A stretch of 64,000 nucleotides of DNA from Nocardia sp. NBC_00416 (GTDB taxonomy: Bacteria > Actinomycetota > Actinomycetes > Mycobacteriales > Mycobacteriaceae). The stretch's first letter is position 1. Each line of letters opens with the position of its first letter. Below, piece by piece: positions 55,035-60,395 of the stretch. Position numbers and translations under genes: made by a program. The notes beneath the pieces were generated by a model that searched no databases, was not told where the DNA came from, and saw only the letters and a list, made by a program, of their open reading frames with translations. The stretch is taken from contig NZ_CP107932.1 in the NCBI RefSeq assembly GCF_036032445.1, forward strand, positions 7,256,501 to 7,320,500, written 5' to 3'.

Positions 55035-55054
55035 TGTCTAGACAGTAATTGTCT
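55035..55054 (-). promoter_or_regulatory. Putative MarR operator
   Basis: TGTCTAGACA (55035-55044) is a perfect 10-bp palindrome and AGACA-GTAAT-TGTCT (55040-55054) an overlapping inverted repeat. They lie immediately upstream of the marR-type gene's -10 box. Confidence 0.5.
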
Positions 55055-55167
55055 CTACAGCTAAATCTGCGGCCCCGACGCCACTGTCCGTTTCCCTTCG
55101 GGTGGGCCGGAGACGTCGCGTGCATCGGGTGCTCCGGGTGTGGGCGGGTTTTCGGTGGGATCGGGCG

Positions 55168-55521
55168 CTACGGTCCGGTGCCGAGGTTCGTGGCCCACCC
55201 GTCGGCCCAGGCGGTGAGTGGCTGCAGATGGTCGATCAGTTGCCGCCCCGAATCGGTGAGGACGTAACCGGTGGCGGCGCGTGCGACGATTCGCGTCCCG
55301 CCCAGTTCGTGTAGTCGCCGGGTCAGCAGGCTGGACGACATGTCGTCGCAGCGGGCGCGCAGTTCGCGGAAGGTGAGGGGATCCGGCGCACGGTGGAGCT
55401 CCCAGAGGATGCGCAGCGCCCAGCGTCGGCCGACCAGGTCGAGCAGGGCCATGATCGGGCGCCCGGTAGTCGATCCGCGGACCGGCCTTCCGGGTTCTGG
55501 CACCGAGAGGTCGCGGCTCAT
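55168..55521 (-). CDS. HxlR-family transcriptional regulator
   Basis: A 117-aa winged-helix regulator of the HxlR/QorR type: VGRRWALRILWELHRAPDPLTFRELRARC near 30-58, then SSSLLTRRLHELGG. HxlR members often sense electrophiles or redox state and control an oxidoreductase. ATG 55521 overlaps the stop of the upstream SnoaL gene (ATGA), so both are in one operon starting at the palindrome 55899-55927. A fragment of a quinone-oxidoreductase-like gene lies just beyond that palindrome. Confidence 0.86.
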   Translation of the reverse strand: MSRDLSVPEPGRPVRGSTTGRPIMALLDLVGRRWALRILWELHRAPDPLTFRELRARCDDMSSSLLTRRLHELGGTRIVARAATGYVLTDSGRQLIDHLQPLTAWADGWATNLGTGP

Positions 55522-55904
55522 GTGGATCGGATCGGGAGCGGTGACTGCTCCAGCAGCCGGCGCATCTCGCCGATCGCCGCGCGTAGTGCGGCGTAGGGCC
55601 GTAGGAACAGCGTGATGTGGGTCAACTGGCCGGTCGCGTCGTATTCCTCGTGCAGCACTCCGTTCAGTTCGTCGTCTCCGATCCGGGCCCTGAATCGGGA
55701 GAGCGTGTCGCGCTCGTCGCCCCATCGGCCGGTGCGGGCGGGTTCTTCGAGGACCTCGGCGATCAGTCCGATGATGTGCAGGGCGGCCGCGTGCCCGCGA
55801 TAGTCGGTTGCGGGGCTCGAGAACACCACATCGTGGGTGACGGTCGCGGCCAGCGCCCGAATGTTCCCGGACTGCCATGCGGTCAGAGTCGGAGACGTCA
55901 TCAT
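55518..55904 (-). CDS. SnoaL-like (NTF2-fold) protein
   Basis: A 128-aa NTF2-fold protein starting with MMTSPTLTAWQSGNIRALAATV, the usual SnoaL N-terminal helices, then HDVVFSSPATDYRGHAAALHII. These small proteins bind or isomerise hydrophobic ligands; function here is unknown. ATG 55904 lies 6 nt after TATATT on its strand (leaderless). Its start codon is inside a 29-bp palindrome. First gene of a two-gene operon with the HxlR gene. Confidence 0.83.
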   Translation of the reverse strand: MMTSPTLTAWQSGNIRALAATVTHDVVFSSPATDYRGHAAALHIIGLIAEVLEEPARTGRWGDERDTLSRFRARIGDDELNGVLHEEYDATGQLTHITLFLRPYAALRAAIGEMRRLLEQSPLPIRST

Positions 55905-55927: not shown

Positions 55928-55940
55928 CCTGCCGTGTGAG

Positions 55941-56093
55941 CCGGTTGGGATCGGCGGCGGAGCGACCGTGGTGGCGTTCGCCAGCACCGGCAGCAAACTC
56001 GAGGTCGCCGAACGGAACGGCGCCGACTACACGATCAACACTCGCGGGAAGTCGGCCGATCAGGTGCGGACCGTTCTGGATAGCCTGACCGGT
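55941..56093 (+). pseudogene. Fragment of a zinc-type/quinone oxidoreductase (MDR) gene
   Basis: About 50 codons resemble the coenzyme-binding core of MDR quinone oxidoreductases: GATVVAFASTGSKLEVAERN followed by GADYTINTR and VRTVLDSLTG. The N-terminal ~150 and C-terminal ~130 residues of a normal enzyme are absent. The right end runs into the 3' end of the sigma-factor remnant. It probably was the divergent target of the HxlR gene. Confidence 0.65.
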
Positions 56094-56532
56094 TCAGCGG
56101 TGCAGGGCGGTCTCCTGGTGCACGCGGGAGAGTTTGGCGGGGTTGCGCACGGCGTAGAGCCCGGTGACGAGTCCGTCGTCGATGCGCATCGCCACGATGG
56201 TGTCGATCGCGCCGTCGACCCGGACGATCAGCGCCGGGTGACCGTTGATCTCTGCCGGTCGCAGCGACGCCGCGCCCGCGATCCTGCTCAGTACGGCCGC
56301 CACCGGGTCCGCCCCCACGACCGGCGACAGTGCCGCCCGCACCACTCCGCCCCCGTCGGTCAGCAGGACGACATCGGGTGCGAGGACGTCGAGCAGGTCC
56401 CGCAGATCACCGGTGTCGACCGCTCGCCGGAACGCTTCGAAGGCGTCGCGGGTCTGGGGCCTCGGTAGCGCGGTCGGCGCGGCTGTCTTCCGCGGTGCGG
56501 GGGGCGGGCGTGGTCTGTTGGGTGGCGGTCAT
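56094..56532 (-). pseudogene. Remnant of an ECF41 (SigJ-type) sigma factor: C-terminal NTF2-like domain, frameshifted
   Basis: ATG 56532 opens a frame that stops after ~41 codons; a shift of +1 near 56455 joins it to a frame reading RDAFEAFRRAVDTGDLRDLL, LAPDVVLLTDGGGVVRAALS, VNGxPALxV-like EINGHPALIVRVDG and closing GLYAVRNPAKL. That is the regulatory C-terminal domain of ECF41 sigma factors. The sigma-2 and sigma-4 domains are absent. Possibly a short remodelled SnoaL-like gene with a sequencing or real frameshift. Confidence 0.6.
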
Positions 56533-56587
56533 GGGACTTTCCGTTCGCTCGGCGGTGTCATCCACCAGACGCCGGACCCTGCCGTTT

Positions 56588-56594
56588 TGTCACA
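56588..56594 (+). promoter_or_regulatory. ECF41-like -35 element
   Basis: TGTCACA is identical to the -35 element described for ECF41 targets. A CGTC -10 element at the expected 16-17 nt is missing, so the promoter looks incomplete. Confidence 0.35.
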
Positions 56595-56697
56595 CCACTT
56601 CAGCAGTGATGCACATCACGTGAACGCGTTGTTATCGGGATCCGGCGGCCTTCGTCTCATGGTCGTTCGATCCAGCACCACGAATGAGGAGTACACG

Positions 56698-57330
56698 ATG
56701 GAACCCCGTTTCGACCTGACCGGTAACGAGCTCGGCGCCAAGATCGGCAAGAGGTTCGCGAACACCAGCCTGCTGATCCTGCAATCGACCTTGCCGAAGT
56801 CCACGATGGAACTGGTGGAACTGCGCGCCAGTCAGATCAACGGCTGCGGCTTCTGCGTCGACGCGCACGCGAAAGAGCTGGCGGCCGCGGGAGAACCCGC
56901 CGTCCGGATCAACCTTGCGGCGACCTGGCGTGAGTCCACTGTCTTCACCGAGGCCGAGCGGGTCGCACTCGCATTCGCCGAGGAGGGCACCCGGCTTGCC
57001 GACGCCCACACGGGTGTGTCCGATGCGACGTGGGCCGGGGTCCGCGAGCACTACGACGACGATCAGATCGCCGCGCTGGTCTATCTGGTCGCCATGATCA
57101 ACGCGGCGAACCGGCTCGGCGTGATCGTGAGGCGAATCGTTCTGAATGTCTTTGCTACGGTGTCGGTTTCGCTGGTGATCGGTTTCCAGCCGATGATCGC
57201 GGCCGCCGCCCCGGCCGGAATCCCGGTCGAGCCCGCCGCGCCGACGACCCGAATCGAAACGACGACAGCACCTTTCGACCCGATCTGCCCGCTCTGCTTC
57301 CTGCGCGAATTCCTGGAGAGCAATTCCTAG
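56698..57330 (+). CDS. Carboxymuconolactone decarboxylase/AhpD-like protein with secreted-peptide-like tail
   Basis: Residues 1-~140 form a CMD/AhpD-like domain with the redox motif CGFCVDAHAKEL (CxxC..H) near 44-55 and IAALVYLVAMINAANRLGV near its end. Instead of the usual short end there are ~65 more residues: VRR then a hydrophobic span (IVLNVFATVSVSLVIGF), AAAAP, a Pro/Thr-rich stretch and FDPICPLCFLREFLESNS. That tail looks like a small secreted protein with its own signal peptide, fused in frame. GAGGAG 6 nt upstream fixes ATG 56698. CMD genes are typical ECF41 partners. Confidence 0.8.
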   Translation: MEPRFDLTGNELGAKIGKRFANTSLLILQSTLPKSTMELVELRASQINGCGFCVDAHAKELAAAGEPAVRINLAATWRESTVFTEAERVALAFAEEGTRLADAHTGVSDATWAGVREHYDDDQIAALVYLVAMINAANRLGVIVRRIVLNVFATVSVSLVIGFQPMIAAAAPAGIPVEPAAPTTRIETTTAPFDPICPLCFLREFLESNS

Positions 57331-57478
57331 CCGTGGGCGGCTCTCACTTCGGGGCGTCCGGTGAGATGTGCGGCAGCGCGGGCGCTGGACTTCGGTGAGG
57401 TCGTCGGTGTCGTTGGCCGGCGGCCGACCGGGTCCCGTCTCCGCGAGTGCTGAGACAGGCGCGCTCTAGGATCGCCTG

Positions 57479-58306
57479 GTGCGTGACCCACGAGAACCGA
57501 TGGACTGGCGGAATGCGCGGGTGGTTTCCGCGGTGAAGCTGCACCGGAGTGCGGCGCGGAAGAAGGCGGGCAGGTTCCTCGCCGAGGGCGCCAACTCCGT
57601 CGGCGCCGCACTGGAGACCGGCCGGGTTCGCGAACTCTTCTACTCCGTCGAAGGCGCTACCCGTGAGCATGCGTTGATCGCGGGCGCGGAGGCCGGCGGC
57701 GTGCGGACCACGCTCGTCTCCGATCGGGCCGCGCAGGCGCTGGGGGAGACGGTGACGCCGCCCGGTTTGGTGGCGGTGTGCGATCTGGTCGATATGCCGT
57801 TGGACCGGGTGGTGCCGGCGGAGCCGGGCGGGGAGGGTCCGCGAATGCTCGCGGTCCCCGTCGGTATCGCCGACCCCGGGAACGCGGGCACGCTCATTCG
57901 CGTGGCCGATGCCGTGGGCGTGGACGCCGTCGTCCTCGCCGGTGACAGTGTGGATCCGCACAACGGCAAATGCGTGCGCGCCTGCGCGGGCAGTCTGTTC
58001 CACGTCCCGGTCGTGCGGGAGCGCGACACCGCCGCGGTTCTGGACCGGCTGGAATCCGCGGCGATCGCCACGGTCGCGACCGCCGCCGACGGTGAGATCG
58101 ACCTGGACGACGCCGACGAGTTGTTCACCGGGCCGGTCGCCTGGCTGTTCGGAAACGAGGCCCACGGCCTCGATCCGGAGGTGGCGCGCCGGGCCCGGCA
58201 TCGGATCCGTATCCCGATCCGGGGGCGGGCCGAAAGCCTCAATCTGGCTTCGGCGGCGGCGATCTGCCTCTACGCGAACTCGCGCGTCCGGTTCGGCCGC
58301 GACTGA
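57479..58306 (+). CDS. tsnR: SpoU/TrmH-family rRNA 2'-O-methyltransferase
   Basis: A 275-aa SPOUT methyltransferase: N-terminal substrate-binding domain (GRFLAEGANSVGAALE), then the knotted SAM-binding motifs DPGNAGTLIRVADAVGVD near 147, WLFGNEAHGL near 221 and IPIRGRAESLNLASAAAICL near 244. In this position (after rplT, before pheS) it corresponds to mycobacterial tsnR (Rv1644). The target nucleotide is not known. GTG 57479 is 6 nt after TAGGAT (57467-57472), consistent with a leaderless mRNA. Confidence 0.93.
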   Translation: MRDPREPMDWRNARVVSAVKLHRSAARKKAGRFLAEGANSVGAALETGRVRELFYSVEGATREHALIAGAEAGGVRTTLVSDRAAQALGETVTPPGLVAVCDLVDMPLDRVVPAEPGGEGPRMLAVPVGIADPGNAGTLIRVADAVGVDAVVLAGDSVDPHNGKCVRACAGSLFHVPVVRERDTAAVLDRLESAAIATVATAADGEIDLDDADELFTGPVAWLFGNEAHGLDPEVARRARHRIRIPIRGRAESLNLASAAAICLYANSRVRFGRD

Positions 58307-58883: not shown

Positions 58884-58998
58884 GGTTCTCCGTAAGTTGT
58901 TAGGCGGCCCGGGAGGGCCGGATGTGGCTGATGGTTCTCTGCCTTATGTGGCTTCAGAGGAGTGGCCGTCCGACCCTCCGGGGCGCCCTGACTGCTAA

Positions 58999-60311
58999 TT
59001 GAGAATTGCGCGCCATGTGCGGTCGCTGATTACGGAGATGATGGCGGGGTGTTCCCTCGGGCCGGGACTGTCGTGTTCAGAACTCGGAGGAACGAATGAA
59101 CCAACAGCGGCCCCGTGCGTGGGCTGGTGTCGATGCCGGCAAGGGCCACCATTGGGTGGCGGTGGTCGATGAGACCGGTGCGACCCTGTGGTCGAAGAAG
59201 ATCATCAACGACGAGTCGGCGATCCTGACCGCGCTCGGCGAGATCTGCGGCCTGGCCGAAGAAGTCCACTGGGCGGTGGATATCTCGGGGTCTTCCTCGG
59301 CGTTGCTGCTGGCGTTGCTCGCCGCTCACGGCCATCAGGCCGTCTATGTGCCCGGCCGGACCGTCAACCGCATGTCGGGTGCCTACCGCGGTGAAGCAAA
59401 AACCGATGCCCGCGACGCCTACGTCATCGCTGAAACCGCTCGGCACCGCAACGACTTCACCGCGATCGAGGTGCCGGCCCAGCTCGCTGCCGACCTGGCG
59501 TTGCTGACTGCCTACCGCACCGACCTGGTGGCCGATCGGGTCCGGATGATCAACCGGCTGCGGGACGTGTTGACCAGCATTTTCCCCGCTCTGGAACGGG
59601 CTTTCGACTACAACAGCCACAAGGGCGCGCTGGTCTTGCTGACCGGCTATCAGACTCCGGCCGCGATCCGACGGCGCGGCCGGACCCGGCTCACGGCCTG
59701 GCTGGCCAACCGCAGTGTCCGCGCCGCGGACACCGTTGCCGACACCGCCGTGCAAGCGGCTCAGGCCCAGCACACCACACTGCCCGGCGAGGACGCCGCC
59801 GGGCAGATCGTCGCAGACCTGGCCAAGCAGATCCTCGCCCTGGACGACCGGCTCAAGCAGCTCGACAGCCAGATCCGTGAGATATTCCACGGTCATCCGC
59901 AAGCCGCGATCATCGAGTCCCTGCCGGGAATCGGGCCGATCCTGGGTGCGGAGCTGGTTGTCGCCGCCGGTGATCTGTCCAATTACACCGATGCCGGGCA
60001 CCTGGCGTCGGCCGCCGGGCTGGTCCCGGTCCCCCGTGACTCGGGCCGGCGGACCGGCAATCTGCACCGGCCCAAACGGTACAGTCGCCGCTTGCGGCGG
60101 GTGTTCTACATGTCGGCCCAGACCAGCATCATCCGCGACGGACCCAACCGCGACTTCTACCTGAAGAAACGCGCCGAGGGATGCAAGCACGTCCAAGCCA
60201 TCATCGCCCTGGCCCGCCGACGAGTCGGTGTCCTGTGGGCACTGCTGCGCGACAACCGCGAATTCACCCCCGTCCCACCGGTCGCGCTCGCAGCTTGACT
60301 TCCTCATTGAG
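58999..60311 (+). mobile_element. IS110-family insertion sequence, ends uncertain
   Basis: IS110 elements lack inverted repeats, so ends cannot be proved here. ATTGAGA occurs at 58999-59005 and 60305-60311, bracketing the transposase gene and giving a plausible size of ~1.3 kb. The left non-coding part would then be only ~90 nt, shorter than usual for a bridge-RNA region, so the true left end may lie nearer 58900. Confidence 0.4.
59096..60298 (+). CDS. IS110-family transposase (DEDD recombinase)
   Basis: A 400-aa IS110 recombinase. The RuvC-like N-terminal domain has GVDAGKGHHWVAVVD near 9-23, WAVDISGSS near 60, and KTDARDAYVIAE near 100. The C-terminal Transposase_20 domain has ESLPGIGPILGAELVVAAG near 281 and LASAAGLVPVPRDSGRRTG near 303, carrying the catalytic Ser region. 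Members insert DNA guided by a bridge RNA from the element's end. The gene is intact. CGGAGGAA immediately precedes ATG 59096. Confidence 0.95.
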   Translation: MNQQRPRAWAGVDAGKGHHWVAVVDETGATLWSKKIINDESAILTALGEICGLAEEVHWAVDISGSSSALLLALLAAHGHQAVYVPGRTVNRMSGAYRGEAKTDARDAYVIAETARHRNDFTAIEVPAQLAADLALLTAYRTDLVADRVRMINRLRDVLTSIFPALERAFDYNSHKGALVLLTGYQTPAAIRRRGRTRLTAWLANRSVRAADTVADTAVQAAQAQHTTLPGEDAAGQIVADLAKQILALDDRLKQLDSQIREIFHGHPQAAIIESLPGIGPILGAELVVAAGDLSNYTDAGHLASAAGLVPVPRDSGRRTGNLHRPKRYSRRLRRVFYMSAQTSIIRDGPNRDFYLKKRAEGCKHVQAIIALARRRVGVLWALLRDNREFTPVPPVALAA

Positions 60312-60327
60312 ACTCCTCTGCATCCCT

Positions 60328-60395
60328 GACGTCCTTGACGTCCTTGACATGTTATCAGTCAATGCATACCGTAAGAACGACTTAGTTATCAGTCG
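60328..60395 (+). promoter_or_regulatory. Promoter and repeated operator of the MFS efflux gene
   Basis: TTGACA (60344-60349), 17-nt spacer, TACCGT (60367-60372). GTTATCAGTC occurs in the spacer (60351-60360) and again downstream of the start site (60385-60394), each part of an imperfect inverted repeat (second: CGACT-N8-AGTCG, 60378-60395). TGACGTCCT is repeated in tandem at 60328-60345. Confidence 0.6.

Follow-up and report, generated by a model that had tools for sequence, protein, structure and literature searches.

ECF41 sigma factors, which are covered by the TIGR02957 (SigX4) and PRK09636 (SigJ) models, carry a SnoaL-type C-terminal extension and have as a neighbor a gene for a carboxymuconolactone decarboxylase (CMD) with a CxxC motif (Wecke et al. 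2012, PMC3426412). The CMD gene is under the control of the ECF41 factor, and the consensus promoter consists of TGTCACA, a spacer of 16 ± 1 bp, and CGTC; in the divergent <ECF< >COE> order, which accounts for 15% of loci, such a promoter often stands before both genes (PMC3426412). In that work, which used B. subtilis as a host for promoter tests of Ecf41, activity was lost when the whole extension was missing, and partly truncated factors were hyperactive (PMC3426412). The structure of a relative of these factors, M. tuberculosis SigJ, has been solved (PDB 5xe7). The CMD proteins belong to the AhpD-like family (PF02627, TIGR00778), of which PDB 2ijc / PA0269 is an example.

We compared with these systems a divergent gene pair in the window, by which we mean the whole stretch of 64,000 nucleotides that was analyzed (G000:C1:7256501-7320500, from a 7.37-Mb genome assembled as a single contig and 100% complete). 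The pair shares with the described ECF41 loci the SnoaL-type C-terminal extension, the CMD neighbor with CxxC, the 16-bp spacer followed by CGTC, and the divergent order, but differs from them in that sigma2 and sigma4 are absent and neither -35 element is TGTCACA. We conclude, with a probability of roughly 0.87, that 55930-57330 holds the relic of a divergent ECF41-CMD module, which no longer works. From left to right, MarR, HxlR, and SnoaL genes on the minus strand are followed by an MDR fragment (+), a SnoaL/NTF2 frame (-), the 5' stub of the ECF41 gene (-), and the CMD ORF (+) (Table 1). All elements listed by an earlier, sequence-only reading of this DNA, namely, the MDR fragment, the SnoaL/NTF2 remnant, a TGTCACA sequence, and the CMD gene, were found to exist.

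Table 1. Features of the ECF41-CMD locus and its flanks (positions in the window)
Feature	Position	Strand	Remarks
HxlR regulator gene	~55168-55515	-	Left flank, beside SnoaL-like gene
SnoaL-like gene, ancestral neighborhood	55518-55904	-	Adjoins TrmH in G031, G030, and G015
Stray MDR/zinc-type dehydrogenase fragment	55951-56092	+	Weak ADH_zinc_N match; 82% DNA identity to intact MDR gene of G005 (another species of the genus)
ECF41 gene remnant	56532-56094	-	Start and first ~25 codons, then SnoaL domain to original stop
Promoter of former ECF41 gene, TGTGACA-N16-CGTC	56594-56568	-	Position-matched to ECF promoters of relatives
CMD promoter, TGTTATC-N16-CGTC	56630-56656	+	41 nt upstream of ATG; predicted ECF41-type
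AhpD-like CMD gene, CGFC motif kept	56698-57129	+	C-terminal GGSYxxG tail and stop codon lost
Small secreted-protein gene	57130-57330	+	Signal peptide, FDPICPLCF motif; native neighbor of HxlR-SnoaL-TrmH in relatives
TrmH-type RNA methyltransferase gene	57479-58306	+	Ancestral right flank

In relatives found via the CMD protein, an ECF41 factor of ~306 aa (sigma2-sigma4-SnoaL) was encoded divergently to the AhpD-like CMD gene, across the CMD promoter from it. The ECF41 protein of an intact relative exceeded the cut-offs of the sigma-70 region 2, sigma-70 region 4, SigX4, and SigJ models, and the nearest relatives of the window module were complete ECF41-CMD pairs with the same order and spacing. 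Among 79 loci, a sample that is biased by having been chosen for similarity and that partly comes from draft assemblies in which errors may be contained, both genes were intact in 42, and one half was broken in 13. The possibility raised beforehand that the NTF2-like gene is always short and free-standing in relatives does not agree with these 42 loci, each of which has a complete ECF41 gene and CMD gene. The two divergent gene remnants of the window, together with their promoters and start codons, are arranged and spaced as in dozens of intact relatives, an agreement that is more than chance.

Residues ~1-25 and ~187-306 are left of the ECF41 factor of the window, and its sigma2 and sigma4 domains are missing. 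The 5' stub, MTATQQTTPAPRTAEDSRADRATEA, which runs from the ATG at 56532 to ~56466 on the minus strand, corresponds to the N-terminus of the intact factor. The SnoaL/NTF2 frame is open at 56465-56097 (-), with the stop reaching 56094, and aligned only to residues ~187-306 of the intact ~306-aa protein, up to its last residue; compared with the closest intact ECF41s, it was 72-76% identical to their C-terminus. Against TIGR02957 SigX4, it covered positions 160-280 of 281 only (E 7e-29). The interval from ATE to the E/Q-TR motif comprises 165 codons (495 nt) in six intact relatives vs 13 nt in the window, where the stub ends with ATEA and is joined to QTRDAFEAF between about 56458 and 56471. The deletion thus amounts to ~482 bp as counted from the printed sequences, which is not a multiple of three, so that the pieces are joined out of frame. 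The frameshift that had been placed near 56455 therefore exists as an out-of-frame join, but it is due to this deletion and not to a single-base slip. The loss of the sigma2/sigma4 core from an ECF41 locus, as the sequence-only reading had proposed, was confirmed by the intact relatives, which have a complete sigma factor gene divergent to CMD. Because both domains are lost and the frame is shifted, no sigma factor can be made from this gene. When the DNA was compared with that of 150 genomes of the genus, the matches were interrupted at this join, stopping at query position 533 and resuming at ~545 or later, and no clear short repeats were seen there.

The SnoaL remnant was off at 2 of the 51 columns that are conserved in 90% of 61 intact factors, and 30 of these 61 factors equal or exceed this number. 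Since conserved sites of the remnant are not changed unusually often, the deletion was probably recent, although the same conservation would also fit a domain that is still in use. A working free-standing protein, e.g., a trans regulator of another ECF41, would account for the intact conserved sites, with the DGGG and NPxKL motifs included, and could complement a second, broken ECF41 gene at 2.82 Mb of this genome (2824697-2825697, L115/L128), in which sigma2-sigma4 is in frame, the linker carries an indel, and SnoaL is out of frame, giving a 191-residue product with no in-frame SnoaL domain. We nevertheless regard such a protein as very improbable, as the SnoaL frame has no start of its own, is out of frame with the ECF ATG, and offers its earliest possible start codon, GTG at 56345, already inside the domain. 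Among the 150 genomes, none had the joins of the window or a free-standing SnoaL form with them, and a comparable SnoaL remnant in G173, which adjoins an intact CMD gene, is more eroded than that of the window, as decay predicts.

The CMD protein matched PF02627 (E 8e-18) and TIGR00778 (E 2e-17) and shares with the AhpD-like family the core domain and CGFC, here at residues 50-53. The CMD part differed at 2 of 73 conserved columns. The ORF starting from the ATG at 56698 runs to 57330 as an in-frame fusion, and homology to relatives ends at ~57129. Unlike the family, in which the GxYxxG tail was found in 61 of 62 CMD relatives, the window CMD has had this tail exchanged in frame for 66 codons, i.e., 66 residues, of a small secreted-protein gene. 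In relatives, the secreted-protein gene starts at an ATG (TTG in one) of its own, preceded by a ribosome-binding site; the window has lost both of these. The previous description of a target gene left with part of its promoter applies insofar as the CMD gene is present from its ATG, but the gene has lost its tail and is fused. Tiny secreted proteins with the conserved TAPFDPICPLCF motif were observed at 57130-57330 of the window and at L101, L102, L103, and L107, and their genes adjoin HxlR-SnoaL-trmH in some relatives.

We also compared the gene order around the pair. In G031, G030, and G015, the secreted-protein gene is followed by HxlR, SnoaL, trmH, and TetR, and ECF41-CMD is absent there; in the window, the order is HxlR-SnoaL, MDR fragment, ECF remnant, CMD, secreted-protein gene, and trmH. 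This synteny indicates that the ECF41-CMD pair was inserted here and that the secreted-protein gene switched sides, and the pair accordingly occupies a foreign site between the SnoaL gene and trmH. When the origin of 57331-57438 and 55042-55167 was sought, nothing matched except a 19-base end of the MarR flank. Further to the right, an IS110-like element (58892-60342; transposase at 59096-60298, +) has been inserted behind the TetR gene and separates it from the conserved gene that follows; relatives are contiguous at this point.

Assembly errors could also produce a deletion and a fusion, and the small linker indel in the second ECF41 gene of this genome might be a sequencing slip of that kind. 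However, a 482-bp deletion together with a relocated gene and two foreign joins is atypical of read errors, the assembly is complete and in one contig, and other species show similar losses. This explanation for the window, whose state is known from a single genome of the species, is hardly credible. The intact form, as seen in relatives, has a divergent sigma factor gene and CMD gene, each with an ECF41-type promoter, and, according to published work, the sigma factor drives CMD; the promoter standing before the sigma gene suggests that the factor would also drive itself. In the lineage of the window, the pair moved to the site between the SnoaL gene and trmH, a ~482-bp deletion took sigma2 and sigma4 and shifted the frame so that no sigma factor can be made, and a second join swapped the CMD tail for the secreted-protein gene.

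The MDR fragment, which the sequence-only reading had included in the locus, does not belong to it. Of 59 genomes, only 2 others contained kin of the fragment, three MDR genes in all, and a second copy was not found in its own genome. As the oxidoreductase of the module, the fragment was rejected because the MDR that adjoins the module in some relatives (G030 and, in part, G113, G031, and G015) is a different protein and is located on the other side. The orthologue of this module-adjoining MDR gene is intact at 2.96 Mb in the genome studied here, and no ECF41-CMD pair was present beside it in the flanking stretch compared.

ECF41-type spacing and CGTC are kept at both promoters of the window, with TGTGACA as the -35 element of the former ECF41 gene and TGTTATC as that of the CMD gene. 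In the genus, CMD genes, with or without a sigma neighbor, are preceded by TGTnAyn-N16-C(G/A)TC, mostly 38-57 nt before the ATG, and a separate ECF41-type promoter usually stands before the divergent ECF gene. The CMD promoter was assigned because of the conserved position and not from a genome-wide promoter scan, which gave 30 matches vs 15 for the reversed pattern and was uninformative alone. Its -35 element departs from the TGTTACG consensus of its class, with T as the fourth and C as the seventh base. The TGTCACA sequence pointed out earlier is present at 56588-56594 (+), but it is TGTGACA on the minus strand, i.e., the ECF promoter read on the other strand. It was rejected as the CMD promoter, as there is no CGTC at N16 on the plus strand and its position marks it as the promoter of the ECF gene itself.

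The fourth base of the -35 element varied together with one residue of the sigma4 recognition helix, located at X in VRQ[IL]A-X-RAR. In a first sample of 61 ECF41 factors from Nocardia and a few others of the order, this residue was His in 31, whose own -35 elements all (31/31) have C as the fourth base, and Tyr in 30, of which 28 had T; for the remaining two, it is the CMD promoter that has T. In a second sample of 80 named actinobacterial loci, which partly overlaps the first by repeating some Nocardia, C was found for 68/68 His factors and T for 9/9 Tyr factors among the loci with a recognized promoter. The promoter scorer gave C and T equal acceptance, and the His/Tyr column was the only alignment column that set the two classes apart perfectly. 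On the tree, the Tyr proteins need about 4 changes, at least 2 of them on supported branches, and one supported clade contains Microtetraspora niveoalba (His, TGTCACA), Nonomuraea terrae (Tyr, TGTTACA), and Streptomyces buecherae (Tyr, TGTTACG). The SnoaL remnant of the window grouped with the Tyr-type ECF41s with weak support. A phylum-wide search for more Tyr-type factors gave one further Tyr protein, which had no recognizable promoter. In an independent-pairs test, the switches on supported branches were too few for significance, and given the few independent switches, the covariation may come from shared descent.

In solved complexes, H174 of sigmaW and F175 of sigmaE contact template-strand bases -32 and -33 (PMC6713349). 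In our own alignment, whose register was set by the K/R-T/S/Q-x-x-X-R spacing, Tyr168 of the G030 protein was aligned with sigmaE Phe175 and sigmaW His174, and base 4 becomes -33 when the G of TGT is placed at -35. On balance, we lean toward the view that this single sigma4 residue sets base 4 of the -35 element, such that His reads TGTCACA and Tyr reads TGTTACG/A, that it has switched at least twice, and that loss of a Tyr-type factor strands T-type promoters, such as that of the CMD gene in the window. Support for the relation between His/Tyr and C/T at base -33 comes from a second switch, which lies outside Nocardia, and from the solved complexes of sigmaW and sigmaE. If true, the rule would be of use in predicting the targets of ECF41 factors and in designing orthogonal switches. 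Three loci (L244, L248, and L250) were observed, together with the Nocardia loci, to show His/Tyr tracking C/T at base 4. Asp82 in sigma2 accompanies the Tyr class, and the -10 element of the CMD promoter is often CATC at His-type loci and CGTC at Tyr-type loci.

ECF41-like matches in the genome studied here include an intact factor at 471612 and another at 5106852. A search for another ECF41 able to drive the CMD gene, as suggested beforehand, thus led to the intact factor at 471612, but this factor is His-type and the CMD promoter is T-type. Regulation of the CMD gene in trans by another ECF41 of the genome would be consistent with this factor, with a CMD paralogue at 5852956 that has a TGTCACA promoter, and with the many orphan CMD genes of Nocardia (L022-L030), which have no adjacent sigma factor and keep a perfect TGTCACA-N16-CGTC, suggesting trans regulation. 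For the CMD gene of the window, such regulation is unlikely, since bases 4 and 7 of its TGTTATC element are T and C, respectively, the close ECF41s that the genome still has are His-type, every sampled His factor with a promoter pairs with C as the fourth base, and the gene is tail-less and fused. Because the intact close ECF41 is His-type and such factors are elsewhere paired with TGTCACA, the orphaned T-type CMD promoter would seem to be without an evident cognate factor in this genome.

Decayed ECF41-CMD modules were also found in other Nocardia (G031, G173, G148, G156, G106, and G113). They have in common with the window that one half is broken while the other persists, whereas the window shows damage to both halves and a relocated pair. 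The locus represents a well-documented case of decay in a one-target regulatory module, which is ordinary gene decay. Sigma factor and target have been lost independently several times in one genus, which fits the published view of a single dispensable ECF41 target. In G031, the decay was reciprocal (L004/L063 and L033/L064), with an intact CMD gene and an ECF scrap at one locus and an intact ECF gene and a CMD scrap at another.
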